A stretch of 64,000 nucleotides of DNA from a bacterium. Its GTDB lineage: Bacteria; Armatimonadota; Fimbriimonadia; Fimbriimonadales; Fimbriimonadaceae. Positions 12,374 through 25,679 of the stretch are shown here, in pieces (position 1 is the stretch's first letter; each line of letters opens with the position of its first letter). The stretch covers positions 682,001-746,000 of the forward strand of contig JAIXQR010000007.1 in the NCBI GenBank assembly GCA_027485645.1, read 5' to 3'. The position numbers were made by a program, and so were the translations under genes. The notes under the pieces were generated by a model. That model was not told the origin of the DNA. It made no database searches and saw only the letters and a list, made by a program, of their open reading frames with translations.

Positions 12374-12379
12374 GAACTA

Positions 12380-12408
12380 TAACTACAACTTTACAAAAAA
12401 TATTTCAA
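12380..12408 (-). promoter_or_regulatory. Promoter of protease-nuclease gene (-35 TTGAAA, -10 TAGTTA)
   Basis: On the minus strand TTGAAA (12408-12403), a 17-nt AT-rich spacer, TAGTTA (12385-12380), six bases, then GTG at 12373. Correct spacing and no ribosome-binding site: a likely leaderless start. It lies in the 51-bp gap after the K+ channel stop. A GTTAAG-AAAA-CTTAAC inverted repeat (12414-12429) overlaps that stop and may be a weak terminator or operator. Confidence 0.5.
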
Positions 12409-12424
12409 GTCTTGTTAAGAAAAC

Positions 12425-13165
12425 TTAACGTTTCATTTCCGAAACGTCCGTCACGCTCGCCAGGGTCGCGATGAACCTTGCGATCACCACCGTGAGATAC
12501 AGCGTGCCGAGAAACCCTTGCGTCACCGCAATCCAGCGGGCATCCCCTTTCGGCGTAAAGTCGCCGTAGCCGATGGTGAGCTGAGTTACGAAGCTGAAGT
12601 AGAGCGCGTCCTGACCGCTGTTCATCGTGGTGCCAGATTGAACCACCGAAGCATTCGGCAGCAGCCAATAAAGCATCGCAAAGCAAAGCCCGGTCTCCAG
12701 GTAGTTGATGAAGCTCATCACGATGACCCTCTCCTTTGAGCCGATCACGTGTTCGGGTTGCGCCGCGCCCATCGCCACCGGAATGTACCGATCGAAAATC
12801 ACGACGCGCTGCGCGTATGCCGAAACATCCAAGATCCGCCAGATGGCAAAGGCGATCAGAACATTGCGGAGCGCGATGGCCGGCGGGTTCACCAGCTCGA
12901 GCCCAATCACCTCAATTGCCACGCAGCTCATCGTGAGGAAGTCAACGCGCAACCCGTGCCAGAGCCGCCGCTTCGTGTACTCCTCTGGCTTGTCCAAACG
13001 CGTCTCTTTCCGGCCCAGCAACAGGGTGCCGGGAAAAGTCATGAGGCACAGCAGCGCTGCGTACAAGGTCACGATGAGCGAGGCCGTGTGCGTTTCTCGC
13101 TTGTACCGCCAATAGCCAATGAGCGGATAGAAGCCCTCCTTCACAATCGTCAGCCAGGTGTTCAA
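12425..13165 (-). CDS. Potassium ion channel (2-TM pore domain with N-terminal membrane region)
   Basis: 246 aa. The selectivity filter TIGYGD (Thr197-Asp202) with a preceding pore helix (DALYFSFVTQL) and a following inner helix (GTLYLTVVIARFIATL) identifies a K+ channel pore. Upstream are more hydrophobic segments (about residues 28-50, 80-112 and 148-168), so it is larger than a minimal two-helix channel, and there is no obvious RCK domain. The start is a TTG at 13165, with TAGAAT nine nt upstream. It is 51 bp upstream of the protease-nuclease gene in the same direction; whether they work together is unknown. Channels do occur as effectors or sensors in some defence systems, but equally as housekeeping genes. 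Confidence 0.88.
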   Translation of the reverse strand: MNTWLTIVKEGFYPLIGYWRYKRETHTASLIVTLYAALLCLMTFPGTLLLGRKETRLDKPEEYTKRRLWHGLRVDFLTMSCVAIEVIGLELVNPPAIALRNVLIAFAIWRILDVSAYAQRVVIFDRYIPVAMGAAQPEHVIGSKERVIVMSFINYLETGLCFAMLYWLLPNASVVQSGTTMNSGQDALYFSFVTQLTIGYGDFTPKGDARWIAVTQGFLGTLYLTVVIARFIATLASVTDVSEMKR

Positions 13166-13207
13166 CGCGGCTTCATTCTAACTCGGATGCCCTTCTCGCA
13201 TTCCTGA

Positions 13208-13213
13208 TACGAT
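13208..13213 (+). promoter_or_regulatory. -10 box TACGAT, 7 nt before GTG
   Basis: TACGAT followed by seven bases and the GTG start at 13221; no Shine-Dalgarno. Leaderless pattern. Confidence 0.35.
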
Positions 13214-13220
13214 CATTGTT

Positions 13221-14045
13221 GTGATCACTCTTATCTCGGCACTGTTGATCGGCTCTCAGGCCATGCCAGACATGCATCTGGTGTCGAAATCTGCCCGAGC
13301 GATCGTCTCGCCGAAAATCGGCCGCCTCATCTACTTCGGTCCGCTCCACGGCCCGAACCTGCTCTGGCAAGATCGATCGGCCCCCGATGCACCGTGGCGC
13401 AATTGGGGCGGCGATAAGCTGTGGACCGCGCCGCAAAGCGACTGGAACTGGCCACCGGTGTTGGAGCACGATGGCCAACCGCACCACGCCAGCCTCAACG
13501 AGAACACGATCCACCTACTCTCTGACCCCGATGCCCGCGGCGTCCGGTTTGTGCGCGAATTCTGCCTCATTGGCCGAGAGCTGACGATTGTGAATCGGAT
13601 GGAAAACTTTGGCCATGATCCGGTCCGCGCCGCCATTTGGCAGATCACCCAGATTCCCGCACCGGCCGAGATTCGCTTTGCCTACGAGCCATCCTCGCTC
13701 TTTCCCGCCGGCTGGGAAGCCTATCCCTGGACCACCCAAGGCGCAACCCAGATCTCTCGAAACGCCGCTGAGGTCGTGATCTCGCCAGACTTCTCCACCG
13801 CCCAGAAGTACGGCACGGCCACTCAAGCCGGCTACCTTTGCGCAAAAATCGGCAACTACTGGCTCCGCCTCACCCACCCCTACGAGCCCCACGCAACCTA
13901 TGCCGACCAAGGCAAAGCCCAGCAAGTCTTCCTAAGCAACAGCCCCCGCTACGCCGAACTAGAAGTCACCGCCCCGTTGGAAACGATCCGATCCCGCGGA
14001 CACCAATCGATGACGACAACCCTCTCGTTCGAAAGGGCCCGTTAG
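13221..14045 (+). CDS. DUF4380-like secreted sugar-mutarotase-fold protein
   Basis: 274 aa. A short hydrophobic N-terminus (MITLISALLIGSQA) looks like a signal peptide. The body is rich in beta-strand and carries phrases I associate with DUF4380 / aldose-epimerase-like folds: YFGPLHGPNLLW, WGGDKLWTAPQSDWNWPP, and an acidic-aromatic LTHPYEPHATYADQG near the end. Such proteins are often found with glycoside hydrolases, and their reaction is unknown. The start is GTG, supported by the -10 box. It stands alone between the K+ channel (divergent) and the repeat island. Confidence 0.68.
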   Translation: MITLISALLIGSQAMPDMHLVSKSARAIVSPKIGRLIYFGPLHGPNLLWQDRSAPDAPWRNWGGDKLWTAPQSDWNWPPVLEHDGQPHHASLNENTIHLLSDPDARGVRFVREFCLIGRELTIVNRMENFGHDPVRAAIWQITQIPAPAEIRFAYEPSSLFPAGWEAYPWTTQGATQISRNAAEVVISPDFSTAQKYGTATQAGYLCAKIGNYWLRLTHPYEPHATYADQGKAQQVFLSNSPRYAELEVTAPLETIRSRGHQSMTTTLSFERAR

Positions 14046-14048
14046 CCT

Positions 14049-14099
14049 CTGGAGTGCGGCAGTTGGAGTTAAAAACGAAACGTAGCTCTAAGCTGCCGC
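14049..14099. repeat. Dispersed hairpin repeat 'CTGGAGTGCGGCAG', long variant
   Basis: Begins CTGGAGTGCGGCAGTT as in the copies after clpB (44685 and 44833). The left arm from 14056 pairs imperfectly with the right arm to 14099 around an A-rich loop. It sits just after a stop codon, as the other copies do. Confidence 0.55.
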
Positions 14100-14123
14100 C
14101 AAAACAAATCCGAACCACGAACG

Positions 14124-14153
14124 AATCCGAACTAATCCGAACTAATCCGAACT
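14124..14153. repeat. Three tandem copies of AATCCGAACT
   Basis: Three exact head-to-tail copies of a 10-bp unit, with a partial match just upstream (about 14106). It lies between the DUF4380-like gene and the first island gene; no function is evident. Confidence 0.7.
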
Positions 14154-14161
14154 AAGGATGG

Positions 14162-14500
14162 CTAATCCTTAGCCTTCCACGCGAACAACGTCATACATCC
14201 GACAAGGTAACTAGCTTGCTGCACCGGCGGAAGCACGTTGAGCAGTCCCTTTGGCAAGTTTTCTTTGACCGATAAAACAAGGCAACTTGCAAGACAAAGA
14301 ATGGCTGTGATTGCTAAAGCCTTGTTCCTAAATGCAGCTATAGATGTACTGGTTGATGCCAGCATAACAACCGCCGACACTATCACAACGGAATCGATCT
14401 GCGGCATGCTTGGACGCTCAAAAATCCGCGAGCCAATCCAGAGAACTAAGAACACCAATCCTCCGACAAGTCGTGCGCGCTCAGATACGGACTGTTTCAT
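14162..14500 (-). CDS. Small membrane protein (island gene)
   Basis: 112 aa, unrecognised. Four hydrophobic stretches (about residues 10-24, 37-57, 61-79 and 92-108) with a short charged N-terminus; likely a four-helix inner-membrane protein. It is the last gene of the minus-strand island and stops next to a 10-bp tandem repeat. No partner is coupled to it. Confidence 0.6.
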   Translation of the reverse strand: MKQSVSERARLVGGLVFLVLWIGSRIFERPSMPQIDSVVIVSAVVMLASTSTSIAAFRNKALAITAILCLASCLVLSVKENLPKGLLNVLPPVQQASYLVGCMTLFAWKAKD

Positions 14501-14607
14501 CGGCTTTTCGTCCTCAGCTCTGTTAGTCTATCACGTGGCAAACCCAGCTTTTGCAGGACCGGCCAAAAGTCGCAGTCAATCCGGTCGCATCGAAACATTA
14601 GTTGAAC

Positions 14608-14934
14608 TCAAAGGATATTGATGATAGTGTCCACTACATCACTTTGACGAGGAAGCTCCACCACCACAACATCCGGGAGCCCAGCTTCCACTGCGTTAAA
14701 CGTCGGCGTCACGGGGCCGGGAAAGGCCAGCACCACCATACGTCCCTTGCTCTTACACTGGCGGCACACTTGATAGCCATCCATTATTGGCATCATTGCT
14801 GCCACGATGGCTAAATCCCACGGCTCCGTCAACAAGCGTTCCAATAGCTTGTCACCTTCGAAAACTTGCTCAAAAACCACACCGTCGCGTGGTGTGAGTT
14901 TATAATCGTACAAAAGACCCTCAATACTGCACAA
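14608..14934 (-). CDS. Degenerate response-regulator receiver-like protein
   Basis: 108 aa. The middle (DLAIVAAMMPIMDGYQVCRQ) closely follows the receiver-domain pattern D-L-x-x-x-D-x-x-M-P-x-M-D-G, but the phospho-acceptor Asp is replaced by Ala, and the N-terminal acidic pair is missing. MVVLAF followed by PGLPDVVVVELPR corresponds to the later strands. If real it is a pseudo-receiver that cannot be phosphorylated in the normal way. The start overlaps the upstream gene by 14 bp, the same overlap length as in the duplicated island pair, suggesting coupling. The receiver assignment is from motif reading only. Confidence 0.55.
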   Translation of the reverse strand: MCSIEGLLYDYKLTPRDGVVFEQVFEGDKLLERLLTEPWDLAIVAAMMPIMDGYQVCRQCKSKGRMVVLAFPGPVTPTFNAVEAGLPDVVVVELPRQSDVVDTIINIL

Positions 14935-15379
14935 CTCTCTTCACTCGATCGTGTCCATCAGGCTTCTGGCCCTCTAAAGAAGCCGCGGTAAGAAGTTCTG
15001 TAGCGAACGCTCTCAGATCATCTTTCAGCGCATAACCGTTCAACTGTTGACCGTTAGCCATTGAGACTTGGACATGCAAGGTATTGGGAACCTTACAATT
15101 CCGTATGGTCCAAACGAAGTCTCGAAGTCCCGCTTGAAGGCAAACAGAATCTTTAAAGGCTACGGGCCAGGCGTCATGCCAATCGGCATTTGTAGCATCA
15201 ATCACCGCTTCTGCAATCCTCGTCAGAGCAAAAGCCCCGCTCGAACCGAGTTCGTAGGCCAGGCACTCGGTTTTTTCATATTCAGTCCAACAGACACTGA
15301 TTTCTTGACCATCAACCTGGAAACTGATGATCGGCCCTCTGTCCGTGAATAGCTTCTTGAGCTTCAAGGTGGCACTCAT
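14921..15379 (-). CDS. Hypothetical protein (island gene)
   Basis: 152 aa, unrecognised, no membrane segment or signal peptide; cytoplasmic, mixed alpha/beta by eye, moderately Cys-rich (five Cys). A weak ribosome-binding site (GAGAAG) precedes the ATG. It overlaps the pseudo-receiver gene downstream by 14 bp. The general look (150 aa, soluble, near small membrane proteins) is like immunity proteins of polymorphic toxin loci, but I see no toxin and no family motif. Confidence 0.62.
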   Translation of the reverse strand: MSATLKLKKLFTDRGPIISFQVDGQEISVCWTEYEKTECLAYELGSSGAFALTRIAEAVIDATNADWHDAWPVAFKDSVCLQAGLRDFVWTIRNCKVPNTLHVQVSMANGQQLNGYALKDDLRAFATELLTAASLEGQKPDGHDRVKRVVQY

Positions 15380-15444
15380 ATGTTCTTCTCAATCATCTGT
15401 GATAGGACCGCAAACTTCATCGAAAATCGAATCTATAAGTTTGC

Positions 15445-15609
15445 CTACATCTTTGGAAACGACTTCGATTCCAAAGCCCCCAAAAGCAACATCATGAGCA
15501 CTAACAACCAAGGACGTAGTTCTTTTGAAGCATGGAAGAAACTCAGATACAATAGCCCGGCAATAGCACCTATAACCGCAACATAACACAAAAGCCCTTT
15601 AACGTTCAT
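15445..15609 (-). CDS. Tiny membrane protein (54 aa), coupled
   Basis: 54 aa: MNVKGLLCYVAVIGAIAGL, then a short charged turn (SFFHASKELRP) and WLLVLMMLLLGALESKSF: two membrane helices. Its ATG at 15609 overlaps the TGA of the upstream gene as ATGA, which is the main reason to believe it, since this overlap is used throughout the window. A different-frame ORF on the same strand (15389-15589) has no such support. Confidence 0.5.
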   Translation of the reverse strand: MNVKGLLCYVAVIGAIAGLLYLSFFHASKELRPWLLVLMMLLLGALESKSFPKM

Positions 15610-16052
15610 CGTGGATTCCTCAACTGGTGAAGCGCGGCTTCAGTTTCGGCCGGATGGGCCAGTCGACAATCCAGCACTACCCAACGACTGTTCACGTGAA
15701 AATACCAAAGCTCGCCCCCAGGCAGCGGATGCATGCCGGTCCGTCGAACCTTTTCGGCCGGCTGGGTCGTGCCATCCGAGAGCAACAAAGAGAAGGAGTT
15801 CTCGTCCCGAATAAGGTTGTAACGCATGTCCCGACATAGCCTCCAACACCCAAATCCGAGGTGCGCAAAGTACGTTCCAGACATCACAAAAAACGCCAGC
15901 ACGACGTAGCCTAAGAGATCTTCGATCGGCATTCGGGTGAACAAGATTTGCAAGACGAAAAACACCGAACCTACGACCAGTAGAAGAAAAAATGTGCCGC
16001 AGATCCCAAGGAAGCGACGCGTGTACGGACGAAACTCCATCCTCTGCTTCAT
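15606..16052 (-). CDS. Two-helix membrane protein with soluble C-domain (island gene)
   Basis: 148 aa. A basic N-terminus, two membrane helices (about residues 14-36 and 44-64), then a cytoplasmic or periplasmic beta-rich domain (ENSFSLLLSDGTTQPAEKVRR ... YFHVNSRWVVLDCRL). The layout recalls YcxB-like / DUF-type immunity membrane proteins, but I cannot name a family. The gene starts 20 bp downstream of repeat copy A and is followed by the overlapping 54-aa membrane protein. Confidence 0.68.
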   Translation of the reverse strand: MKQRMEFRPYTRRFLGICGTFFLLLVVGSVFFVLQILFTRMPIEDLLGYVVLAFFVMSGTYFAHLGFGCWRLCRDMRYNLIRDENSFSLLLSDGTTQPAEKVRRTGMHPLPGGELWYFHVNSRWVVLDCRLAHPAETEAALHQLRNPR

Positions 16053-16070
16053 AAGCTCGACTTTTCACGC

Positions 16071-16112
16071 AACAAACATGCCGTCATGCTCCGTGACTAT
16101 CGTACACGGGAA
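16071..16112 (-). repeat. Island repeat, copy A (truncated: lead only)
   Basis: Carries the lead part shared with copies B-D (AAACATGCCGTCATGCTC followed by a CGTACAC motif) but lacks the 12-bp hairpin. It lies between two island genes, just upstream of the start at 16052. Confidence 0.7.
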
Positions 16113-16189
16113 TCAAAACGGAAATCGTTTGTCCAGACTAAAGGACCTCAAAATCTTAGAGTATGAGAAGCAAATTTCCTACCAGAAAG

Positions 16190-16759
16190 TTACGTCTTGA
16201 TACAGCTTTGAAAATCTGCGGCCGCGCTTGCAGATGCTGCAAAACACAAGAACTCGCCACCTGTCCCATCCATTGCTCCCGACACTCTTAGCGAAGTCGC
16301 ATCCAAACGAAAAACCCGCCCAGTTTGCACCTCGTTAGAACAAGCTTGAGCCAAAGCGGAACCCGGCGGAATCCAGGACGTAGCTTCTAGTTGATCACGA
16401 ACAGCTTCGAATTCTGGGCCAAAGCAGACTTGGAAATAGCCGACATCGGTAGCCGCGCTTCTAGGCAACCAAGCTTCAGATTCATCCCAAATCCAATCCG
16501 CGCAAAGAATCGCTTGTGAATCGGCCGGGAGCTTTACGGGCGCGTTATCAAGTCCAGGAACGACAACGCGCAAAATGAGTGCGGGCCCTAATCTTCTCAA
16601 TAGGCAACCGAGAAGATTGCGGACCTCATCCATCACCAAATCGTCCCACGGGACTTCCTGAACGGCTGCCCGGCCAATCCATGCATGGCTCCAATCGCCC
16701 AGATCATAGACCCCAACTGATCTTAGGTCCTCAAAACTCGGATTAGGCACCCATTGCAT
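16190..16759 (-). CDS. Hypothetical protein (island gene)
   Basis: 189 aa, soluble, unrecognised. Aromatic- and acidic-rich N-terminus (SHAWIGRAAVQEVPWDDLVMDEV), then a predicted alpha/beta body ending in an Ala-rich Cys-containing tail. A strong Shine-Dalgarno (GAGGAG, 7 nt from the ATG) supports the start at 16759. Repeat copy B lies directly upstream and copy A downstream, so the gene occupies one complete unit of the island. Confidence 0.68.
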   Translation of the reverse strand: MQWVPNPSFEDLRSVGVYDLGDWSHAWIGRAAVQEVPWDDLVMDEVRNLLGCLLRRLGPALILRVVVPGLDNAPVKLPADSQAILCADWIWDESEAWLPRSAATDVGYFQVCFGPEFEAVRDQLEATSWIPPGSALAQACSNEVQTGRVFRLDATSLRVSGAMDGTGGEFLCFAASASAAADFQSCIKT

Positions 16760-16821
16760 TCTTCACTCCTCAAGTCTACGTCCGACGTGCTATGAAAGGG
16801 CCACCAGACCAACAACGCAAT

Positions 16822-16912
16822 AAACATGCCGTCATGCTCTGCGCGCATAGTACACAAAAAACTGTTTGAGCCCCTTCTCCGTTCCGACGGAGAAGGGGTC
16901 GGGGGATGAGGA
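16822..16912 (-). repeat. Island repeat, copy B (lead plus hairpin)
   Basis: Lead AAACATGCCGTCATGCTC, then a perfect 12-bp stem CCCCTTCTCCGT (16871-16882) / ACGGAGAAGGGG (16887-16898) with loop TCCG, then TCGGGGGATGAGGA. The tail diverges from copies C-E. It is located between the stop at 16924 and the start at 16759. Confidence 0.85.
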
Positions 16913-16923
16913 TCCATTTCGAA

Positions 16924-17205
16924 TCACTCCATCTCCTCACCTTGCATGCAGCTCGCGAGAAATCGAAGCAGGTACGTTCTACGCTGGACGACAAGAGCCT
17001 CCACCATCCGCTCAAACTCGGCTTCATTCACCCGCTCGACACGATGATGCACCAGAATCGATCCGAAGGCCGCCCTCCCTTGGTAAACAATGTGGACGTC
17101 CATTGTCTCATTCCCGTCCGCCACGGATGCTTCCCCCGTAGCCAATAGGTGACCAAATAGTCGAGTGCGGTAGGGCCCAATATGCTCGACCTCGCTCATC
17201 TTCAA
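16924..17205 (-). CDS. Small hypothetical protein (island gene)
   Basis: Up to 93 aa; the TTG at 17205 opens the frame, but the ATG two codons later (17199, MSEVEHIGPYRTRLFGHLL) is the more likely start. Soluble, Glu/Arg-rich; a strand-rich first half and a C-terminal helix (EAEFERMVEALVVQRRTYLLRFLAS). It is separated from the upstream 224-aa gene by only 32 bp, so the two are probably co-transcribed. No family recognised. Confidence 0.58.
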   Translation of the reverse strand: MKMSEVEHIGPYRTRLFGHLLATGEASVADGNETMDVHIVYQGRAAFGSILVHHRVERVNEAEFERMVEALVVQRRTYLLRFLASCMQGEEME

Positions 17206-17237
17206 GAAATGCCCCTAACCTCTTGTATCAATTCAGC

Positions 17238-17912
17238 TTAGGCGGGCCGATCTGGCCGTCTCAAATTCTGCCACCGCTCAATGTTCTCCGCAAGCGATAA
17301 CGGCGGCAGAATCTGCCCGTCTTGCGGCGACCAATTTGTCCCGAGAGCCCTGTTCTCCGCAATCTCTGCCGAGGTCGTCACCAAACTTCCGACTGGCAAT
17401 GGTGGCAACTCCAGATCATTTCGATGCCATAAGAATGCGGTGTTAACGCTAAACTCGAAAACGTCGGCAAACACCGCAAAACTGCACCCCTCTATCCCCG
17501 CGGCGTAGTTGGCGAAGCTGGAAGCTGAACAGTGCTCGAGTGTTAGGGGGGCCTGATATAAGCCATTTAGCCAAGAATCACGTGTAGATCGCCGCGCAAA
17601 CAAGAGGGCTATCGGCGTCGTGGATATGATCTTCAAATACTCTATACCCGCTACTATCGAAGGCACATCGTTAAAGCTCCAAGTCTGCTGAAAAGCTGAA
17701 GCGTCGTTAACTAGAATCTGCACACCTTCTGACTCCACTTGAGGTACGCCACGTAGTTCCGGAGTCTCCAGCTCAGTCAACATCAGCCCGCGCAGTTTCG
17801 GTTGGACTTGCTCAAGAAGTTGCAGAAACGCCACAAACGGCGACGGCATTTGCCCTACCTCCAACGCAGCACCGTGCCAACCTGGCAGAACGATCACTTC
17901 TTGGTTGTTCAT
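17238..17912 (-). CDS. Hypothetical protein (island gene)
   Basis: 224 aa, soluble, unrecognised. A hydrophobic core but no membrane segment; alternating strand/helix pattern, with several Asn/Asp-rich turns (VNDASAFQQTWSFNDVPSIVAG, SVNTAFLWHRNDLELPPLP). An AAGGGG stretch 12 nt before the ATG may serve as ribosome-binding site. It lies 59 bp from the upstream PKIF-type gene. There is no palindromic repeat on its 5' side, so it appears to share a unit with its neighbours. Confidence 0.66.
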   Translation of the reverse strand: MNNQEVIVLPGWHGAALEVGQMPSPFVAFLQLLEQVQPKLRGLMLTELETPELRGVPQVESEGVQILVNDASAFQQTWSFNDVPSIVAGIEYLKIISTTPIALLFARRSTRDSWLNGLYQAPLTLEHCSASSFANYAAGIEGCSFAVFADVFEFSVNTAFLWHRNDLELPPLPVGSLVTTSAEIAENRALGTNWSPQDGQILPPLSLAENIERWQNLRRPDRPA

Positions 17913-17971
17913 CGTTTCGTCAACCCCTTCTTAGTTTCTAGAATGTCTAACGGCAGTACTTGGTGTCCACC

Positions 17972-18370
17972 TTACCGAAGCTCGGGCCATTGCATGGCCA
18001 TATCTTCCCGCGTCACTGGCCATCGCCGTGCCTCCGCAGTTGCCGATTGTTTAATCTTCTGATGAACTTCCTCGAACGTCGCGGCATCAAGATATCTTAA
18101 CTCCAGAGCCATTTTGTAAAGGGAGGTTTCACCTCCCTTCATCCTCCGAAAAAGTGCGCCCGAATCTGCAGGCGCGGCCATTCCCTGTGTTGAAGTCAGA
18201 AGCCAAGCGTTTTCCACGTACCAATAGCGAATGATGAATCTCAAACGTTCGCCGTCCGGCTGTTTCTTGAGTAGCCGAACCACGTGCCTATACCGGGAGT
18301 TCATCGTAGCCGAACTGAACACAACCTGAGCCAGCGCTCCAGGCAATCGAAAGATCTTAGGAATTGTCAT
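17972..18370 (-). CDS. PKIF-type hypothetical protein, copy 1 of duplicated pair
   Basis: 132 aa from ATG 18370. The start is fixed by alignment to its paralogue at 18954-19352: both begin M-x-x-PKIFRLPG-L-Q and share MNSRY, RFIIR-WY-E, LFRRMKGGE and W-E-L near the end. The frame is open further upstream, but the extra residues have no counterpart. It overlaps the upstream membrane-protein gene by 14 bp exactly as the second copy does. Soluble; function unknown. The two proteins are clearly homologous but diverged at many positions, so the duplication is not recent. Confidence 0.75.
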   Translation of the reverse strand: MTIPKIFRLPGALAQVVFSSATMNSRYRHVVRLLKKQPDGERLRFIIRYWYVENAWLLTSTQGMAAPADSGALFRRMKGGETSLYKMALELRYLDAATFEEVHQKIKQSATAEARRWPVTREDMAMQWPELR

Positions 18371-18707
18371 TTCCAGAACTCGTACTCTTAGGTTCCATCT
18401 CAGGCTCAGGCTTGTCCCAGCTCCTAGGCTTCGACTTAAAATATTGTACGAAAACCACGGCAAGGATAGTTTGAACCAGGAAGCTCAACCCCACACCGCG
18501 AAAGCCAGAGTAAATCCCCGATTCGTAAACCCATAGGACCATGAAAGAACACGCGTGGGCTCCAATTACTCGTCCATCTTTCGTAAGCGTGCCAAGCCCA
18601 ATCATGAACAGGGTCTGCACGCCGAATTGGATGACTCGAAAACAGTTTCTTTGCTCCATGAGCACTTCGCTTCCAATCTCTGCAACGAGAGAAAGTACGT
18701 CCATCAT
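18357..18707 (-). CDS. Membrane protein with ESGIYSGFRGVG motif, copy 1
   Basis: About 116 aa from the ATG at 18707 (MMDVLSLVAEIGSE). The frame continues upstream to 18797, but the paralogue at 19339-19710 starts at about this point, and copy 1 has ATC where copy 2 has its first ATG. Three hydrophobic segments; a conserved loop WV-ESGIYSGFRGVGL-FLVQ precedes the last helix, followed by a basic and Pro-rich tail. Its 3' end overlaps the PKIF gene by 14 bp. Probably an inner-membrane partner of the PKIF protein (inference from coupled duplication). Confidence 0.68.
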   Translation of the reverse strand: MMDVLSLVAEIGSEVLMEQRNCFRVIQFGVQTLFMIGLGTLTKDGRVIGAHACSFMVLWVYESGIYSGFRGVGLSFLVQTILAVVFVQYFKSKPRSWDKPEPEMEPKSTSSGNDNS

Positions 18708-18815
18708 CGCTGAGAAAGCGACCCCGATTTCGCTGAAACACCGACGGTATCGTCCGTCTGAACGTTTTTCACCGGGAGTGAAATCAAGCGAAAACAACCC
18801 ACCGCATCAAGTACC

Positions 18816-18935
18816 AAACATGCCGCCATGCTCCGTGACCATCGTACACGAGAAACCGTTTGAGCCCCTTCTCCGTTCCGACGGAGAAGGGGTCGGGGGA
18901 TGAGGACACGCGCAGCCAAATATCGGACAATCAAC
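18816..18935 (-). repeat. Island repeat, copy C (full length)
   Basis: Lead (AAACATGCCGCCATGCTCC, CGTACACGAGAAACC), 12-bp stem at 18865-18876 / 18881-18892, the TCGGGGGATGAGGA segment, and a tail GACACGCGCAGCC that matches copy E. It separates the two copies of the membrane + PKIF pair. Confidence 0.88.
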
Positions 18936-18953
18936 GAACCAAAAGCTTCCAAC

Positions 18954-19352
18954 TCAGTGAAGCTCGGACCATCGCAGAGCTAAATACGTTTGCGCCACTG
19001 GCCACTTCCATGACTCCGCTATTACCGCTTGCTGAACGTTCTGACGGATTTCCTCTGGAGTCGGAGCATCAAGGGCTCTTAACTCCAGAGCAATATCCGC
19101 TATGGAGGCTTCACCTCCCTTCATCCGCCGAAAGAGTGCATTCGAATTTGAAGGCACGGCTGATCCTGATGTTAAGACCAGCAGCCAACTGCTTTCCAAG
19201 TACCAAAAGCGAATGATGAAGCCGAGATGCTCGCCGTCTGACTGACTCCCCAAGTCCCGAACCACACGCTTATACCGGGAGTTCATCGTAGTGGAACGGA
19301 ACAAAGCCTGAACCAGTTCGCCAGGTAAGCGGAAGATCTTAGGAACTCTCAT
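18954..19352 (-). CDS. PKIF-type hypothetical protein, copy 2
   Basis: 132 aa starting MRVPKIFRLPGELVQALF, homologous over its whole length to the protein at 17972-18370. The ATG overlaps the upstream membrane-protein gene by 14 bp. Soluble, helical C-terminus. Unknown function; the strict co-duplication with the membrane gene argues that the two products act together. Confidence 0.76.
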   Translation of the reverse strand: MRVPKIFRLPGELVQALFRSTTMNSRYKRVVRDLGSQSDGEHLGFIIRFWYLESSWLLVLTSGSAVPSNSNALFRRMKGGEASIADIALELRALDAPTPEEIRQNVQQAVIAESWKWPVAQTYLALRWSELH

Positions 19353-19710
19353 TTGCCGAACTCCCGCGCTGCGGTTCTAATTCAGGTCCAGTCTGGATCG
19401 CAGTTCTTGGCCTCGACCTGAAAAATCGCACCAGGACAACGGCAATGAGAAGTTGCACTAGAAAACCCAGCCCCACTCCGCGAAATCCCGAGTAAATCCC
19501 CGATTCGTCAACCCATAGGAACATGACTGAAGGCATGGAATATATCAGCGCTCTGTCTTCTTTCGTAAACTTAATGATCCCAGCACCGATCACGGCCTGA
19601 AGGACTATTTGCAAAAATCGAATGTAATCTATCTGCCCTTCGGGCGCCTCGCTTCCAATCTCCGCAACAAGAGAAAGTAAGTCCATCACCGCTGAGAAAG
19701 CGCTCCCCAT
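19339..19710 (-). CDS. Membrane protein with ESGIYSGFRGVG motif, copy 2
   Basis: Up to 123 aa (MGSAFSAVMDLLSLVAEIGSE); homologous to 18357-18707. The in-frame GTG/ATG pair seven to eight residues in matches the start I chose for copy 1, so either could be used. Membrane segments at about residues 32-48, 62-72 and 85-103, with the same loop DESGIYSGFRGVGLGFLVQ. Repeat copy D lies immediately upstream. Confidence 0.7.
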   Translation of the reverse strand: MGSAFSAVMDLLSLVAEIGSEAPEGQIDYIRFLQIVLQAVIGAGIIKFTKEDRALIYSMPSVMFLWVDESGIYSGFRGVGLGFLVQLLIAVVLVRFFRSRPRTAIQTGPELEPQRGSSANESS

Positions 19711-19788
19711 TTCGCTGAAACTCCGACAGCATCGTCCGCCCCGGCCCGGAGCCTAATCAAGCTAAACCAAACCTCCCCATCAAGCAAC

Positions 19789-19905
19789 AAACATTCCGTC
19801 ATGTTTCCGCAACTATCGTACACGAGAAAATCCGTGTGAGCCCCTTCTCCGTTCCGACGGAGAAGGGGTCGGGGGATGAGGACCCGCCCAACCGAAACTC
19901 GGACG
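19789..19905 (-). repeat. Island repeat, copy D (full length)
   Basis: Lead AAACATTCCGTCATG and CGTACACGAGAAA, the same 12-bp stem (19841-19852 / 19857-19868), TCGGGGGATGAGGA, and a tail related to C and E (CCGAAACTCGGACG). It lies between the FGE-like gene stop and the start of membrane copy 2. Confidence 0.86.
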
Positions 19906-19938
19906 TTCGTCCTATCGGTAGTGTCCCAACAAGCCCGC

Positions 19939-20709
19939 TCACAAGTCGAAGGCCACTCTAAACCCAGCTGGTTCTAAGTTATGGCAGCGCATACCGACCA
20001 TCGCTCCGGATAGATAGTCCTCATTCATCTCAATTCGCAGGCCCGAATAGAAGATTTTGTCCCGGCGTCCCATGGGTTTGATGACTGGGCCTCTGAGCCA
20101 ATAATCCGGACCATAGGCTCCTTGCACGAGTTCACGAACATTGCCCCATAGCCCTTTAACGCCCTGAGAGCTGCATGCCAGATCGGGGGAATCAACCGGA
20201 ATTACGTCCGGCAGAATGTCTTTCACGGTTCCTTGCGTAAGGCTTCGACTAGCTTGATACCCAAGAAAACCGCTGCGTTGACGCCCCCTGAGCAAAAACT
20301 CAAACTCTTCTTCTCGAAGCAAACGACCGCCAACAAGGGAACAAAACGTAATGGCCTCAGCATAGGAAACTCCTAGCACTGGCATGTCATCGGAGTAGCC
20401 CGAAATATCGAAAGTGCTATGCCAGTACTGTTTATGTTCGTCTGGGATCGACAGAGAGGATTCAAGGTATATCCTGCGAAAACTCTCCTTCGTAATTGCG
20501 CAACGCATGACTCGAAATGGGCGGATGCGAGCCCGTCTCGGCGGGCAGTCGCCTAGAATTTCAGCCGCAATCTTCTCACCAAATTGGTCATTGATCGTGT
20601 CCATATCGGGAGAGTGAATTCCGAGGCGTACAGCGGCGGGCCGCTCGATCGTAACCACGTTCGCGGTGGAACAAAATTGACTTACATAGTCTTGCCAATC
20701 TGACTTCAA
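19939..20709 (-). CDS. FGE-sulfatase (SUMF1) fold protein, probably non-catalytic
   Basis: 256 aa from a TTG at 20709 that overlaps the TGA of an upstream 43-aa ORF (TTGA). The second half follows the formylglycine-generating-enzyme / EgtB-like fold: MPVLGVSYAEAITFCSLVGGRL, REEEFEFLLRG, GLWGNVRELVQGAYG, and a terminal GFRVAFDL. The pair of active-site cysteines used by true FGEs is not seen near the C-terminus (only one Cys, MRCHN), so sulfatase activation is unlikely. The fold is also used as a binding or scaffold module. The N-terminal 90 residues are unassigned. Confidence 0.75.
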   Translation of the reverse strand: MKSDWQDYVSQFCSTANVVTIERPAAVRLGIHSPDMDTINDQFGEKIAAEILGDCPPRRARIRPFRVMRCAITKESFRRIYLESSLSIPDEHKQYWHSTFDISGYSDDMPVLGVSYAEAITFCSLVGGRLLREEEFEFLLRGRQRSGFLGYQASRSLTQGTVKDILPDVIPVDSPDLACSSQGVKGLWGNVRELVQGAYGPDYWLRGPVIKPMGRRDKIFYSGLRIEMNEDYLSGAMVGMRCHNLEPAGFRVAFDL

Positions 20710-20837
20710 TTAAAGACACCTAAAGTTCCTAGTACCTCGGCACAAGAAGCGCGAATCAAAAGCCAATCCGACTTCTTTCGGATCAATTCCGTACTGATAA
20801 CCTGTCCCGCGCTATGGCGCAGCAAAAAATCCCTCAT
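20706..20837 (-). CDS. Possible small ORF (43 aa) coupled to the FGE-like gene
   Basis: MRDFLLRHSAGQVISTELIR continuing to a TGA that overlaps the TTG of the FGE-like gene. The overlap type is the same as murA/mreB. The N-terminal end abuts repeat copy E. It is either a real small cytoplasmic protein or a coupling leader; nothing in the sequence shows function. Confidence 0.35.
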   Translation of the reverse strand: MRDFLLRHSAGQVISTELIRKKSDWLLIRASCAEVLGTLGVFN

Positions 20838-20840
20838 CTT

Positions 20841-20945
20841 CCCGTCACCATCATACGCACGAAACCGTTTGAGCCCCTTCTCCGTTCCGACGGAGAAGGG
20901 GTCGGGGGATGAGGACACGCGCAGCCGAAATTCGGACGATCAACC
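20841..20945 (-). repeat. Island repeat, copy E
   Basis: Weak lead, then ACCGTTTGAG, the 12-bp stem (20874-20885 / 20890-20901), TCGGGGGATGAGGA and the GACACGCGCAGCC tail shared with copy C. It is the right-most copy and lies between the 51-aa membrane gene and the FGE unit. Confidence 0.85.
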
Positions 20946-20992
20946 TGCCTGAACCATTCATAACGGCAGCCAACGAACCTCCCAGACGCAGG

Positions 20993-21148
20993 TCATCTCC
21001 AACCGACCCGCGGCAAGAAAATTCTGACCCCTAACTCCACAAGCGCAATGAGAAAGACAAAGTTGACCACGACCCAGAACAACTGGCGCTTGGGATGGTT
21101 ATCCAAAACACCAATGAGCACCAAGATTGCAAAGAACAAGTAAATCAT
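20993..21148 (-). CDS. Tiny two-helix membrane protein (51 aa)
   Basis: Reads MIYLFFAILVLIGVL, a basic turn DNHPKRQ, LFWVVVNFVFLIALVELG, then VRIFLPRVGWR. It is a clean two-helix hairpin with positively charged turn and tail. It lies 18 bp after the gene at 21167-21550, on the same strand, with repeat copy E directly downstream. Together with the 54-aa protein at 15445-15609 it shows that very small membrane proteins recur in the island. Confidence 0.52.
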   Translation of the reverse strand: MIYLFFAILVLIGVLDNHPKRQLFWVVVNFVFLIALVELGVRIFLPRVGWR

Positions 21149-21166
21149 CGGTCACCGCATCATCAT

Positions 21167-21550
21167 CTAACCAAACGAAAGAACCTTGTCGCCTCGTCCA
21201 ACCCAGTCTTCTAGCTCCACGACATCCACAATTCCTCCTCCGCCAACATCGTCATATATGTAGACCAAGGATCCTGTCAACAGCCTAATCACGGTCTGCA
21301 CCACTCTTTCAGCAAACGTTTCTATATCAGGGCAACCACCAATCATATAGAAATCGTGCATGTACCCGAACCTGGAGTGCAACTCGACATAGCCATTAAA
21401 TCGCACGACGATACCTTCCGCTGATTTGCGTGGCGACACCACCAGATCACCATTCGTTTCATGACTAAGCTCAGCCAATTCCAACAGGTCTGCCGACCCC
21501 AAAAGCCGATCACGGATGAACTGAAACTCCTCGGCCTCGTCATGTTGCAT
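21167..21550 (-). CDS. Hypothetical protein (island gene)
   Basis: About 127 aa, acidic, soluble, unrecognised. MQHDEAEEFQFIRDRLLGSADLL, then strands and VYIYDDVGGGGIVDVVELEDWVG near the end. The start at ATG 21550 is favoured over the GTG two codons upstream because a TAGGAT box ends exactly 7 nt before it. The first gene of the island in transcription order. Confidence 0.65.
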   Translation of the reverse strand: MQHDEAEEFQFIRDRLLGSADLLELAELSHETNGDLVVSPRKSAEGIVVRFNGYVELHSRFGYMHDFYMIGGCPDIETFAERVVQTVIRLLTGSLVYIYDDVGGGGIVDVVELEDWVGRGDKVLSFG

Positions 21551-21557
21551 CTTCACA

Positions 21558-21563
21558 ATCCTA
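21558..21563 (-). promoter_or_regulatory. -10 box TAGGAT, 7 nt before ATG 21550
   Basis: On the minus strand TAGGAT, seven bases, ATG. Leaderless-type promoter and probably the promoter of the first island transcript. The remaining bases up to 21665 show nothing else. Confidence 0.4.
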
Positions 21564-21665
21564 CTCCAGCATCACGTACCGAAAGTCAATCTACGATGGC
21601 CATTCCGCAGCACCTTCAGGCGCAGCTCTGATCGAAGCAATGTTGGTCCAGAACTAAACCGCCAC

Positions 21666-22067
21666 CTAACCGATCGGCTGACCCATCGACCAGTTGTGCC
21701 CAAACGGGCACCGGAACTGCCCGTACCGATCGCCCCAGAACTGATCCGCCAACGGCATCGTCACCGTGCCACCCGCATCAATCGCGCGCTGGAATTGGTT
21801 GTCGATATCCGTGCAAGAAATGTGGATTGTCACCGGAACCGACTCGCCCTCCTTTGGACCAAACGCGCCGTAATCCGGGAACTCGTCGTTCAGCATCAGC
21901 ATTGAATCGCCGATCTTCAGCTGAGCGTTCATCACCTTGCCTTCCGGCGTTTCCATCACTTCGATCGTAATCGCCCCGAGCGCCTGCTCATAAAACGCAA
22001 TCGCCGCGCGGGCGTCACGAACAACCAAGTAGGGGGTCAAAGTTGACAAGGTGATATGTTCAGCCAT
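21666..22067 (-). CDS. VOC-family (PhnB/glyoxalase-like) protein
   Basis: 133 aa. Typical PhnB-like VOC protein: TPYLVVRDARAAIAFYEQALGA at the N-terminus, MLNDEFPDYGAFGP in the middle, and DQFWGDRYGQFRCPFGHNW at the C-terminus. Two beta-alpha-beta-beta-beta modules. The family includes metal-dependent dioxygenases, isomerases and drug-binding proteins, so no substrate is predictable. The start is supported by a TATATT box 7 nt upstream, and the gene is divergent from GH26 with a 45-bp shared promoter region. Confidence 0.85.
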   Translation of the reverse strand: MAEHITLSTLTPYLVVRDARAAIAFYEQALGAITIEVMETPEGKVMNAQLKIGDSMLMLNDEFPDYGAFGPKEGESVPVTIHISCTDIDNQFQRAIDAGGTVTMPLADQFWGDRYGQFRCPFGHNWSMGQPIG

Positions 22068-22112
22068 GGTGTGTAATATATTCCTTACTCGCGAGTTTGT
22101 GATATATAGTCG
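22068..22112. promoter_or_regulatory. Divergent promoter region VOC / GH26 with palindrome
   Basis: For the minus gene: TATATT (22080-22075), 7 nt before ATG. For the plus gene: a TATATA at 22103-22108. Between them lies a perfect 10-bp palindrome ACTCGCGAGT (22087-22096) with a central CG, as in LacI-type operators; the regulator is unknown. Confidence 0.4.
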
Positions 22113-23057
22113 GTGGCTCCGGCCAAATACGCCATGTTGACCACCCTCCTCGCCGCGACAACCATCCTGACCGCGCCAAGCTTGGTCAACAAAGCTTCGA
22201 CCCCCGAAACCGTCGCCCTCAAGTCCTACCTAGACTCAATCTACGGCCAGAAAATGCTCTCCGGCCAGTGCGACGACAAGTATCTGGAGTTCATCAAAAC
22301 CACCACCGGCGGTAAAGAACCCGCCATCATGGGCTACGACTTCAACGGCGTCTGCCCTTCCCAAAACGGAAACCGTGATGCCGAAAAAGCCATCCGCTGG
22401 GTTAACGGACGCGGCGGAATCGCTACCTTCCAATGGCACTGGATCTCGCCCAACGCCGATGGCGACTTCTACACCGACAAGTTCAAACTCGACCAGGCCA
22501 TCGCAAACCCGGAGAGCCAAGGCTACAAAAACCTAGTCCGAGACCTAGACCTCGTCGCGAACAAGCTCAAGATCCTGCAACAAGCCAAGGTCCCCATCAT
22601 CTGGCGCCCCCTCCACGAGGCTGAGGGCAAATGGTTCTGGTGGGGAAAGTCCGGCGAGGCCGCCTGCAAAAAGCTGTACCGCCTCATGTATGACCGGTTC
22701 GTCAACCGGCATAAGCTGAACAACCTCATCTGGACCTGGACCAGCTACGGCAGCCAAAAGGGCAACTGGTATCCCGGAGACGACGTCGTCGACCTCATCG
22801 TTTGGGACTACGAGGACAAGTCGTCTTGGACCGACTACCAAACCCTCTTCGGCGGCCGAGGCAAGCTGTTCGGACTCGGCGAAGAAGGCAAACTGCCAGA
22901 CCCGGAAAACTTCCGCGCCCGCCCCTGGCTGTACTTCCTCACCTGGGCCTACATGATCGAGGACCCCAAGAAGGGCAACACCCCGGAATGGATCAAAAAG
23001 GTCTACAACGACCCCCGAGTCGTCAACCTCTCTGATCTCCCCACCTTCCGCAAATAA
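22113..23057 (+). CDS. Glycoside hydrolase family 26 (beta-mannanase-type), secreted
   Basis: 314 aa with an N-terminal signal peptide (MLTTLLAATTILTAPS), then a GH26 (beta/alpha)8 barrel. Catalytic residues by motif: acid/base Glu169 in WRPLHEAEGKWFWWG, and a nucleophile Glu at GLGEEGK (Glu257). GYDFNGVC, FQWHW and WTWTSYG are also family-like. GH26 enzymes hydrolyse beta-1,4-mannans outside the cytoplasm. The frame opens at GTG 22113, but ATG 22134 gives a better signal peptide and may be the true start. It is followed after 39 bp by the GH5-like gene. Confidence 0.9.
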   Translation: MAPAKYAMLTTLLAATTILTAPSLVNKASTPETVALKSYLDSIYGQKMLSGQCDDKYLEFIKTTTGGKEPAIMGYDFNGVCPSQNGNRDAEKAIRWVNGRGGIATFQWHWISPNADGDFYTDKFKLDQAIANPESQGYKNLVRDLDLVANKLKILQQAKVPIIWRPLHEAEGKWFWWGKSGEAACKKLYRLMYDRFVNRHKLNNLIWTWTSYGSQKGNWYPGDDVVDLIVWDYEDKSSWTDYQTLFGGRGKLFGLGEEGKLPDPENFRARPWLYFLTWAYMIEDPKKGNTPEWIKKVYNDPRVVNLSDLPTFRK

Positions 23058-23084
23058 CCCCTAGCCGCTCGCCGGCACCAAACC

Positions 23085-23090
23085 TATACT
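23085..23090 (+). promoter_or_regulatory. -10 box TATACT, 6 nt before ATG of GH5-like gene
   Basis: TATACT then six bases and ATG 23097; no ribosome-binding site. The same geometry as 48203 and 51167. It means the GH5-like gene has its own leaderless promoter after GH26. Confidence 0.5.
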
Positions 23091-23096
23091 GAAGGC

Positions 23097-25679
23097 ATGA
23101 TGTTGTCGCTGTTGCTAGCATCCGCCGTGCCCTTTTCTCCGCCGCTGGAGTTCACGCTCGACCGCACGGCCAACATCCGCGTGTCGGAAGAAGGCGAAAA
23201 CATCGCGACCTTCGGCTTTGGCATGTTCCGCACCGGCTGGCAATACACCGGCACCCAATCTGCCGAAAACGGCCAAGGCAACCCCACCACCGCGAAAGCC
23301 GTCTGGAGCGGCGGCGAGGCGACGGTGGTCGGCGGCGTCACCGAACTCGCAGATGGCCTCCGCTTTCAAATCCAAGCCACGACCAACGCAAACGTCGGCC
23401 TAGAAAGCGCGCACCTCTACGGCAACTTCCCGACGCCAAAGTGGGCTGGCAGCATCGCCAACGTCGACGGCACCGACTACCCCATCCCCCTCAACTTCGC
23501 GGGGAACACGTTCCTCCGCGGTGGAAACGGCAAAACCGTCAAGTTCTCCAAAGGAGATATTGAAGTCACCATCGAAGGCGATGCCAGCCGACCATCGGTC
23601 CTGCAAGACTCCCGCCAATGGTCGCCGCATGTGGAATGGCGCTTTAACGCCGTCGGCGGAACATGGGCCGCCAACACCACCCGAACCTACACCGTCACCC
23701 TAAAAACCAGCCGCCCCTATACGTTCTCCGTCCAACAGCCATACACCATCACCGCCGGCCCCGACTGGGCCGAGCTCCCCTTCCCTCTCGACGTCACCCC
23801 CGGCTCCGCCCTAGATTGGTCGTCCACTGATTACAAACGCGCCGGATCAGAAGGCTGGCTCGAGTCCCGAAACGGCCACTTCTACTTCCCCGGCAATCCT
23901 CAACCGCAGCGATTCTACGGCGTAAACCTCGCCTTCTCGGCCATGTTTATGAGCAAAAAGGATTCGGAAAAGCTCGCTACCCGCCTCGCCCGAATGGGCT
24001 ACAACGCCGTTCGGCTCCACCACTTCGATTCTGAGCTGACCGGCTGGTCTGGCGGAACCACCAGCACCAGCATCTTCCCGGACAAACTCGACCAGCTCAA
24101 CTACCTGGTCGCAATGCTCAAGAAGCGCGGCATCTACATCTCCCTCGACCTGTTCACGATCCGCCAAATCCGCAACAACGAAGTCCTAACCGGTGCAACC
24201 GACGGCGACGAGTTCAAGGCGCTTCAACTGGTCAATCAAACTGCCAGAAACAACTGGCTAGCCTTCTCGACCAATCTCCTCAACTCGCTCAATCCATACA
24301 CGGGTCTGCGCTGGAAGGACGACCCGGCCATCGCCTGGATCGTGCCCGTGAACGAGAACAACATGGGCAGCGCCACCCGGTCCCTCTCCGCCACCTCCCG
24401 CGCCCTCTTCGATGCCGCCTGGCAGAATGCCGGGAACACCGGCTCCTGGAACTACCAAACCGACGCCGGCGCGAGGTTTGGTGCAAACTTGCATGCCAAC
24501 GCCTATGCCTGGATGAAAACCGAGCTTAGAAACCTCGGCGTTAAGGCACTGCTTTCCGACGTCAACGGCTGGCACGACCAAAGTGTCCTTGTCGGACATC
24601 GCTCCAACCTGGATTACGTCGACAACCACTTCTATTGGGATCATCCCAACTTCTTGGAAAACGCGTGGTCGATCCCGTCTCGAGGCTGGGACAATGGCGG
24701 AATGGCGACCAAGGTCCTTGGTTCTGGTCTCCAAAACACCGCCCTTTCGCGGGTCTATGGCAAACCGTTCACCCTCTCCGAATTCAACTTCGCCGCACCA
24801 AACCGCTTCCGCGCCGAGGGCGGCTTACTGCTCGGTTCGATCGCGGCCCGCCAAGATTGGGATGCCGCGTTCCGGTTCGCTTGGAGCCACAACTCGGCGC
24901 GAATCCAAAACACCAGTCGCTTTGACTACTTCGACATGCAAGCCGACCCGATCGGCCTCGCGTCCGAGCGGGCCATCATCGCGCTGTTCCTCCGCCGAGA
25001 CCTAGACTCCGCATCGGACGAAGGCGTCTTGCGCATTGATCCAAACGGAAGCGGCGTCGCGGGCGGCTACAACGCCCAAATGAGGCGGCAAATTCTCTCC
25101 CGCAAGCTCTACAGCTCAACGACTACCGGAGGCGACGGCAACCTCACCGACCCAACTGCCGCGCAGCCGGTTCAAGTAGATACCGAAACCGGAACCCTGA
25201 CCGTCAACACGCCCCGCACCCAAGGCCTCTTCGCCCCCATTGGCGCAAACGTCACAGCCGGCGGCGTCAACGCCACGCTCTCCGGTCACCGAGGCGCCCT
25301 CTGGATTACCAGTGTCGACCGAAAGCCCATCGCCAGTAGCGGCCGAATGCTCCTGACTTTCCTCACCGACGTTCAGAACACCAACATCCGCTACTCGGGC
25401 CCAGATCGCGATGTCATCGAAAGCTGGGGCACGGTTCCCCACCTCGTCCGGGTCGGCAGCGCATCCGTAACGCTCACCGTGGCCAATGCCAGCCGGTACA
25501 AGGTCTACCGACTCGACATGGCGGGCAATCGTACCGAAGAGATACCGGTCACTCGCACCGCTACCACCCTAGGCTTCACCGTCACCAACTCTGGCCCGAA
25601 CGGCCAAACGCTGTATCACGAAATTGTCGCGGGAAGCATTTTGCCCATCCGCCGCAACCCTGGCCCAGCGCAAAGATGA
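23097..25679 (+). CDS. Large secreted GH5-like (clan A) glycoside hydrolase
   Basis: 860 aa with a signal peptide (MMLSLLLASAVPFSPP). Residues about 20-215 are a beta-sandwich; about 255-640 a clan-A barrel (FYGVNLAFSAMFMS, MGYNAVRLHHFDSE); about 680-850 a beta-sandwich. Catalytic Glu are at residues 420 (IVPVNENNMG, acid/base) and 562 (FTLSEFNFA, nucleophile), at the ends of strands 4 and 7 as in GH5/GH-A cellulases and mannanases. VDNHFYWDHP supplies the strand-6 region. Pairing with the GH26 gene suggests beta-mannan or related hemicellulose as substrate (inference). Length and accessory domains exceed an ordinary GH5. Confidence 0.85.
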   Translation: MMLSLLLASAVPFSPPLEFTLDRTANIRVSEEGENIATFGFGMFRTGWQYTGTQSAENGQGNPTTAKAVWSGGEATVVGGVTELADGLRFQIQATTNANVGLESAHLYGNFPTPKWAGSIANVDGTDYPIPLNFAGNTFLRGGNGKTVKFSKGDIEVTIEGDASRPSVLQDSRQWSPHVEWRFNAVGGTWAANTTRTYTVTLKTSRPYTFSVQQPYTITAGPDWAELPFPLDVTPGSALDWSSTDYKRAGSEGWLESRNGHFYFPGNPQPQRFYGVNLAFSAMFMSKKDSEKLATRLARMGYNAVRLHHFDSELTGWSGGTTSTSIFPDKLDQLNYLVAMLKKRGIYISLDLFTIRQIRNNEVLTGATDGDEFKALQLVNQTARNNWLAFSTNLLNSLNPYTGLRWKDDPAIAWIVPVNENNMGSATRSLSATSRALFDAAWQNAGNTGSWNYQTDAGARFGANLHANAYAWMKTELRNLGVKALLSDVNGWHDQSVLVGHRSNLDYVDNHFYWDHPNFLENAWSIPSRGWDNGGMATKVLGSGLQNTALSRVYGKPFTLSEFNFAAPNRFRAEGGLLLGSIAARQDWDAAFRFAWSHNSARIQNTSRFDYFDMQADPIGLASERAIIALFLRRDLDSASDEGVLRIDPNGSGVAGGYNAQMRRQILSRKLYSSTTTGGDGNLTDPTAAQPVQVDTETGTLTVNTPRTQGLFAPIGANVTAGGVNATLSGHRGALWITSVDRKPIASSGRMLLTFLTDVQNTNIRYSGPDRDVIESWGTVPHLVRVGSASVTLTVANASRYKVYRLDMAGNRTEEIPVTRTATTLGFTVTNSGPNGQTLYHEIVAGSILPIRRNPGPAQR

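Follow-up and report, generated by a model that had tools for sequence, protein, structure and literature searches.

Rhs loci, as described in PMC2935791, have a new toxin tip and its immunity gene spliced onto the core while the old one is pushed downstream, and the same paper reports low-G+C tracts exceeding 7 kb that hold strings of dissociated rhs tips (Jackson et al. 2009). An orphan immunity protein of an Rhs locus in Serratia protects against a rival's Rhs, according to PMC10539506. Extended polyimmunity loci are given in the 2012 listing of PMC3482391 only for certain proteobacteria, bacteroidetes, firmicutes and actinobacteria, and our search of the open-licence literature for Rhs or polymorphic toxins in Armatimonadota or Fimbriimonas returned nothing that, going by its listing, deals with Rhs loci.

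Here we analysed a 64,000-nucleotide stretch (the window) from the draft genome of a Fimbriimonadaceae bacterium (the host; 3.19 Mb, 7 contigs, 98% complete), in which a duplicated pair of genes lies within an island of small genes (Table 1). The island resembles the displaced rhs tip arrays of PMC2935791 in carrying Rhs core fragments and unrelated small genes on the rhs strand of a low-G+C tract of more than 7 kb, and differs from the arrays described there in that its Rhs scraps are much shorter and mostly broken, the window holds no core-end tips and the site lacks the main gene. As in the orphan rhs-CT/rhsI modules outlined by Poole et al. (2011, PMC3150448), an Rhs fragment is followed by small possible immunity genes; unlike in those modules, no CT tip is detectable and two overlapping ORFan genes occur instead of one immunity gene. 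With the polyimmunity loci of Zhang et al. (2012, PMC3482391) it shares tandem genes on one strand without toxin genes, the presence of paralogues and contents that vary among relatives, whereas the scanned proteins belong to no named immunity family and Rhs scraps and hairpins punctuate the genes. Older immunity genes kept after effector displacement are also described for the T6SS immunity arrays of Vibrio cholerae (PMC5361080), although there the secretion system and effectors are others and the main effector is still present. The tandem esaG, tsaI and tipC immunity genes of T7SS, as portrayed in PMC9484751, are likewise non-identical tandem paralogues and include membrane immunity proteins, but they are single-gene units mostly near a toxin gene, and the likeness lies in the descriptions. 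The island is probably a known kind of gene store, made here of new protein families and with a putative function. With it, the pattern of displaced tips and orphan immunity genes known from Rhs loci would reach Armatimonadota, and two new protein families become available as candidate immunity proteins.

Table 1. Features of the island and of the duplicated gene pair, with positions in the window. L047 denotes Rhs fragments of the sister genome G082.
Feature	Positions	Strand	Evidence and remarks
Island of mostly ORFan genes	14050..21647	- (candidate genes)	7.6 kb, low G+C; absent from sister site
Rhs core remnant A, frameshifted, no hairpin	16065..16149	-	78% identity over 86 columns to L047:8384-8469, E 1e-11
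189-aa ORFan gene	16190..16759	-	behind repeat copy B
Repeat copy B, hairpin and weak Rhs remnant	16813..16913 (B also placed at 16839)	-	before 16190-16759 gene
224-aa ORFan gene	17238..17912	-	next gene downstream of pair 1, with no intervening repeat
Soluble (PKIF) protein gene, copy 1	17972..18370	-	ORF; 14-bp overlap with membrane gene
Membrane protein gene, copy 1	18357..18707	-	ORF; one hydrophobic segment over threshold
Rhs core remnant C, frameshifted	18791..18858	-	80% identity over 69 columns to L047:9572-9640, E 2e-9
Repeat copy C, hairpin heading duplicated unit 1	18858..18912	-	1 of 200 shuffles as good
Soluble (PKIF) protein gene, copy 2	18954..19352	-	ORF; 14-bp overlap with membrane gene
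Membrane protein gene, copy 2	19339..19710	-	ORF; two hydrophobic segments over threshold; 51% identity with copy 1
Rhs core remnant D	19757..19829	-	82% identity over 73 bp to L047:9575-9647, E 8e-14
Repeat copy D, hairpin heading duplicated unit 2	19834..19884	-	RNA fold -24.6 kcal/mol; 0 of 200 shuffles as good
FGE-sulfatase-like gene	19939..20709	-	behind repeat copy E; PF03781, E 1.9e-12
Repeat copy E, hairpin and weak Rhs remnant	20842..20944	-	before FGE-like gene

The G+C content of the island is 0.49–0.54, against mostly 0.54–0.61 in the ten kb on each side; other low-G+C stretches of the window lie at 31-35, 50-52 and 57-59 kb. At third codon positions, fourteen island ORFs (the four pair genes included) have a G+C of 0.47–0.65 and five nearby genes 0.73–0.80, with a further window gene at 57079 having 0.56. 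The genes of the island, putative immunity genes, lie in tandem on one strand without toxin genes. At the left edge of the island (14118-14157), a 10-bp unit of the type CGAACTAATC is present four times in tandem, with two exact units, and to the left of the island a 639-aa protein (10454-12373) combines trypsin-like protease (PF13365) and DNA/RNA non-specific endonuclease (PF01223) domains. A weak match of the 15606-16052 protein to the Rhs fragment of the host's C4 locus (E 0.008) was given no weight.

The site of the island could be compared with that in a sister genome of the same genus (G082). The left flank (12027-14049) aligns to sister contig C30 at 83% and the right flank (21648-24000) to contig C28 at 90%, while 14050-21647 yields only repeat-family matches, to the sister's C4, and the sister has none of the island genes between these syntenic flanks. 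Island contents hence differ between close relatives, as judged from this one relative. Beside the right flank, C28 carries a gene that by eye is glycosyltransferase-like, followed by one of 116 aa and by the beginning of an rhs gene; C30 carries an rhs body of 1293 codons (PF05593 in 12 stretches, E 1.4e-79), a tip after DPSGK and a 143-aa follower, and then the left flank. The sister's rhs has the orientation of the island genes. The ends of C28 and C30 have 29 bp in common, inside the rhs gene, hence the two contigs most likely abut and one intact rhs gene most likely spans both, a join to some other rhs gene of the sister being less likely. The sister thus appears to have an intact Rhs gene at this site, across two contigs, which is absent from the site in the host, and gain and loss become directly readable. 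Regions of three further genomes (G091, G096 and G088) aligned to the window only in the GH26 region and were uninformative on the island.

Within the island, the coordinates and gene order that the sequence-only reading had assigned to the two pairs proved correct: both lie on the minus strand in tandem, at a spacing of 982 bp, with repeat copy C (18833-18935) between them and copy D (19809-19911) preceding the second pair on that strand. The membrane gene of copy 2 belongs to the upstream pair in transcription order and may have an alternative start (GTG/ATG) near 19686-19689. The overlap between the two genes is 14 bp in both pairs but is not identical, as had been thought, since 12 of its 14 bases agree. 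The soluble proteins are identical at 76 of 132 residues and the membrane proteins at 59 of 116 aligned residues with the starts first assigned, or 60 of 118 with equalised starts; the copy-versus-copy matches (E 2.3e-47 and 5.3e-32) are beyond chance. The runs singled out earlier as most conserved, ESGIYSGFRGVG in the membrane protein and PKIFRLPG in the soluble protein, are indeed invariant, but so are the similarly long runs LSLVAEIGSE and ALFRRMKGGE. No third copy of either gene was found in the host draft genome at E up to 1.

Both genes are part of the duplication, which extends further than had been described, from the hairpin (19876/18900) to the stop of the soluble gene. The duplicated unit comprises the hairpin, an Rhs scrap, the membrane gene and the soluble gene, and a DNA alignment of the two units gives 712 identical bases out of 985, a count that includes 54 positions upstream of the copy D hairpin that are 56% identical and possibly non-homologous. 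Outside the genes, identity between units is 45/46 in the hairpin, 63/76 in the Rhs scrap (3 gap positions) and 34/46 in the spacer (9 gap positions); within them it is 244/358 for the membrane gene and 291/399 for the soluble gene, with no gaps. The fixed gene order and overlap, on which a membrane–soluble partnership had been proposed, only suggest co-expression of the two genes, and the partnership as such does not stand on them.

Repeats are present at the heads of these units, as had been recognised from the letters, but their content had been missed: they enclose decayed core sequence of Rhs, a YD-repeat polymorphic toxin. On the minus strand, copies B–E are each laid out as a hairpin followed by an Rhs fragment. 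Scraps A, C and D (whose E values in Table 1 come from a search limited to six loci) read VYDxxGNMTxCLL, with a frameshift in A and C; remnant D still reads VYDSCGNMTECLLLDG, out of frame with the membrane gene. Likeness to the longer pattern VYDxxGNMTxCLLxDG is clear in C and D and weak in B and E. Over 65–85 columns, A, C and D are 68–77% identical to three intact Rhs fragments and B and E 59–67%, the latter two being 53–67% identical to the other scraps and Rhs fragments. Rhs core fragments therefore head the cassettes clearly for A, C and D and weakly for B and E. These matches leave an Rhs origin of the scraps well supported.

Scraps C and D are 76% identical to each other, no closer than to the C4 fragment (77% and 78%), and a one-base deletion is common to A, B and C where D keeps the base; both observations count against a simple tandem copy of the scrap. 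On the other side are the spacer shared by C and D and seven changes that both scraps show (out of 16 and 17) relative to a state on which three intact copies agree, the most among ten scrap pairs (next B–C, with 5), which count for a scrap duplicated with the genes. We infer that decay of the scrap was under way when it was duplicated, and that the copies later underwent loss or exchange.

On balance we hold it probable that the island is a relic Rhs locus, that its displaced downstream genes form an orphan immunity array and that the pair is one cassette of it, duplicated in tandem. New Rhs tips with their immunity genes would have displaced older ones, and the older downstream genes would have stayed as orphan cassettes headed by Rhs core scraps, the main rhs gene of the site being later lost or moved. 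The pair would then most likely be a two-gene immunity unit, with a membrane protein guarding the envelope and a co-translated soluble partner. It would have been duplicated in tandem after the Rhs scrap began decaying, and both copies would have diverged quickly, giving resistance to different toxin versions from rivals. The data themselves show the duplication, the Rhs scraps, Rhs at this site in the sister and quick protein change in frames that stay open; the reading draws further on the unlike tips and followers of other Rhs loci, on the low third-position G+C of the island ORFs and on the published arrays. The order of events, the immunity role of the pair, the expression of the genes and the split of labour between membrane and soluble protein are given as we would reconstruct them. 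Immunity itself is the weakest step: the searches gave the pair no toxin tip partner, no known immunity family is matched, and there are two proteins instead of the usual one. Two-gene immunity units are unusual, which also counts against this reading, as do the lack of DPxG before the pair and of a main rhs at the site, a soluble dN/dS not clearly below the random control, poor structure models and a C–D scrap similarity that does not favour a simple tandem copy. If the relic-locus reading is right, the pair would be a natural diverged duplicate and a system for asking whether immunity genes split specificity after duplication.

Further Rhs loci occur in the host and its sister. At the host's C4 locus (L013), a scrap-like stretch lies in a 254-codon open frame (TIGR03696, E 3.5e-20) that runs on to YDPWGAMRQW...ARYYEPGSGRFISEDP...DPSGK, the Rhs core end, and a tip. 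This tip has hydrophobic stretches (by eye) and a 16-bp overlap with the next gene (L013:5993-6757 and 6742-7095). The C4 loci of host and sister have orthologous neighbours and Rhs core ends that are 94% identical over 107 residues, but their tips are unrelated (12% over 57 residues, E 0.74) and their followers do not match; another Rhs fragment comes after these. Relatives of the sister's 116-aa gene and site Rhs occur at two other places in the host, near contig ends. The two long host Rhs proteins are 92% identical over 1204 residues and 79% identical to the sister's site Rhs, while their tips and followers are unrelated; polymorphic Rhs toxins are known to combine a like core with differing tips and followers in this way. 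One host Rhs (L025:10309-14358, 1349 aa) has a 140-aa follower and a tip containing HELMH, which we take to be a zinc-peptidase-like motif. An Rhs end of another type (L023:6396-7400, a 334-aa ORF) is followed by three small same-strand ORFs, a candidate orphan array.

The tip that overlaps its neighbour at the host's C4 locus is similar in layout to the pair, and orphan Rhs toxin fragments with immunity genes are described in PMC3150448 and PMC3967940. The pair could accordingly be read as an orphan toxin–immunity module, in which a detached, membrane-acting tip survives as the membrane protein and is countered by the soluble protein as antidote (or with these roles exchanged), kept as a silent reserve that recombination could fuse onto a full Rhs gene. 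We consider this unlikely. The membrane ORF has its own start and is out of frame with the Rhs scrap, the core end (DPxG) and variable toxin tip present at the C4 loci of both genomes are absent from the cassette heads of the window, and the scraps are too decayed and short for easy rejoining to a main gene.

Further tandem copies in related genomes, the check attached to the sequence-only reading, did not turn up: neither pair protein had a convincing relative in the 290 other phylum genomes (291 genomes searched at E up to 0.01). Weak matches (E 1e-5 or weaker) were obtained in four other genomes for the soluble protein and in two for the membrane protein, several of them in longer frames or with internal stops. 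Of these, the membrane protein match L009, the only locus inspected as DNA, lies in a 427-aa frame, and L005, which came up again with soluble copy 2 in a small search (E 3e-5, 56 residues), was not accepted as a convincing relative. The 224-aa and 189-aa island proteins had no match at E 1e-4 in the 290 other phylum genomes. Searches with the soluble protein returned 57 stretches from genome contigs (single sequence) and 69 from viral contigs (alignment), none of them confirmed, and copy 2 of both proteins gave nothing usable against plasmids. Among PDB sequences, the soluble protein hit three designed helical proteins (E 0.14–0.82) and the membrane alignment none.

Family scans were similarly sparse. 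The four pair proteins had no match over cut-off in Pfam or NCBIfam, none in PHROGs or PADLOC, and matched no named immunity family. Among ten island proteins, Pfam gave one match over cut-off (FGE-like), one sub-cutoff Sigma70_ECF match and none for eight, and NCBIfam three sub-cutoff matches only; Pfam gave none for island proteins 14162 and 21167, and the scans covered the island proteins other than 14608 and 20993. The Sigma70_ECF match, to soluble copy 1 (E 0.083, below cut-off), was rejected, copy 2 being without it. Structure models were useless for the soluble protein (mean pLDDT 39.9) and poor for the membrane protein (64.5 at best, 45–47 in the other four).

Such a lack of convincing relatives, of families over cut-off and of a toxin partner would suit passenger ORFans, that is, unrelated accessory genes that gathered at a hypervariable site, serve some purpose other than toxin conflict and underwent a chance duplication via flanking repeats. 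One cassette does carry an FGE-like enzyme, and the unit is bounded by repeats able to recombine. This origin nevertheless seems quite unlikely to us, given that Rhs scraps are clear at three cassette heads and weak at two, that the sister has Rhs at this very site, and that the frames are kept without indels.

The hairpins that accompany the scraps have at least 12 pairs and z values of -2.9 to -3.4 in the four copies folded. Five places in the host genome have the exact stem, of which four are in the window, and variants occur at the host's C4 and C1:907524 and in the sister; in some host and sister copies A-T replaces G-C on both sides of the stem. Four window copies are identical over 42 hairpin bases (16871-16912, 18865-18906, 19841-19882 and 20874-20915), and copies C and E show 91% identity across 103 bases. 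The Rhs scraps adjoining these four copies (B–E) differ by 24–47%. Either local homogenisation of the hairpin copies or selection on the hairpin may have kept them alike. The hairpin and Rhs scrap might also act as a boundary at which immunity cassettes are stacked, duplicated and swapped in an integron-like manner, through exchange that is either site-specific or driven by homology. That would account for identical hairpin bases beside such divergent scraps, yet we think it very unlikely, as the hairpin is a dispersed element also present away from Rhs in host and sister (host C3 and C1:907524). No attC hallmark was apparent in the hairpin by eye. A known RNA was rejected for the repeats, as no Rfam family reached gathering score in the window; a plain intergenic nature was rejected for the Rhs part on its Rhs matches and stands for the hairpin part, which occurs away from Rhs. 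One hairpin copy (L025:7025-7089) adjoins the 3' end of a gene (L025:7135-8178) that is presumably of IS110 transposase-like type.

The tandem duplication proposed from the letters, with both copies kept open and diverging, is borne out by the coding sequences, which contain no stops and no indels between copies at a dS of 0.47–0.74. This dS is within or above the 0.17–0.60 of seven orthologous genes of host and sister. Three indels occur in the approximately 125 bases just upstream, and none over 757 coding bases; the chance of zero coding indels is 1e-8 at the full upstream rate and 0.002 at one third of it, the upstream stretch being short. When random substitutions of the same spectrum were placed on copy 1, the soluble frame stayed free of stops in 30 of 1000 trials and the membrane frame in 39 of 1000. 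That the ORFs are decaying, functionless remnants, either fortuitously open or under relaxed selection once the main rhs had gone, is scarcely credible against these indel and stop counts, even though the soluble dN/dS lies within the random control and coding identity (68% and 73%) is no higher than that of the Rhs scrap (83%) or spacer (74%). Between copies, dN/dS (Nei-Gojobori) is 0.64 for the soluble gene and 0.47–0.49 for the membrane gene, values as low or lower arising in 116 and 7 of 1000 random trials, respectively, which indicates some constraint on the membrane gene and little that is demonstrable for the soluble gene. The seven host–sister orthologues have dN/dS of 0.05–0.26, hence the pair proteins change approximately 2–14 times faster relative to silent change.
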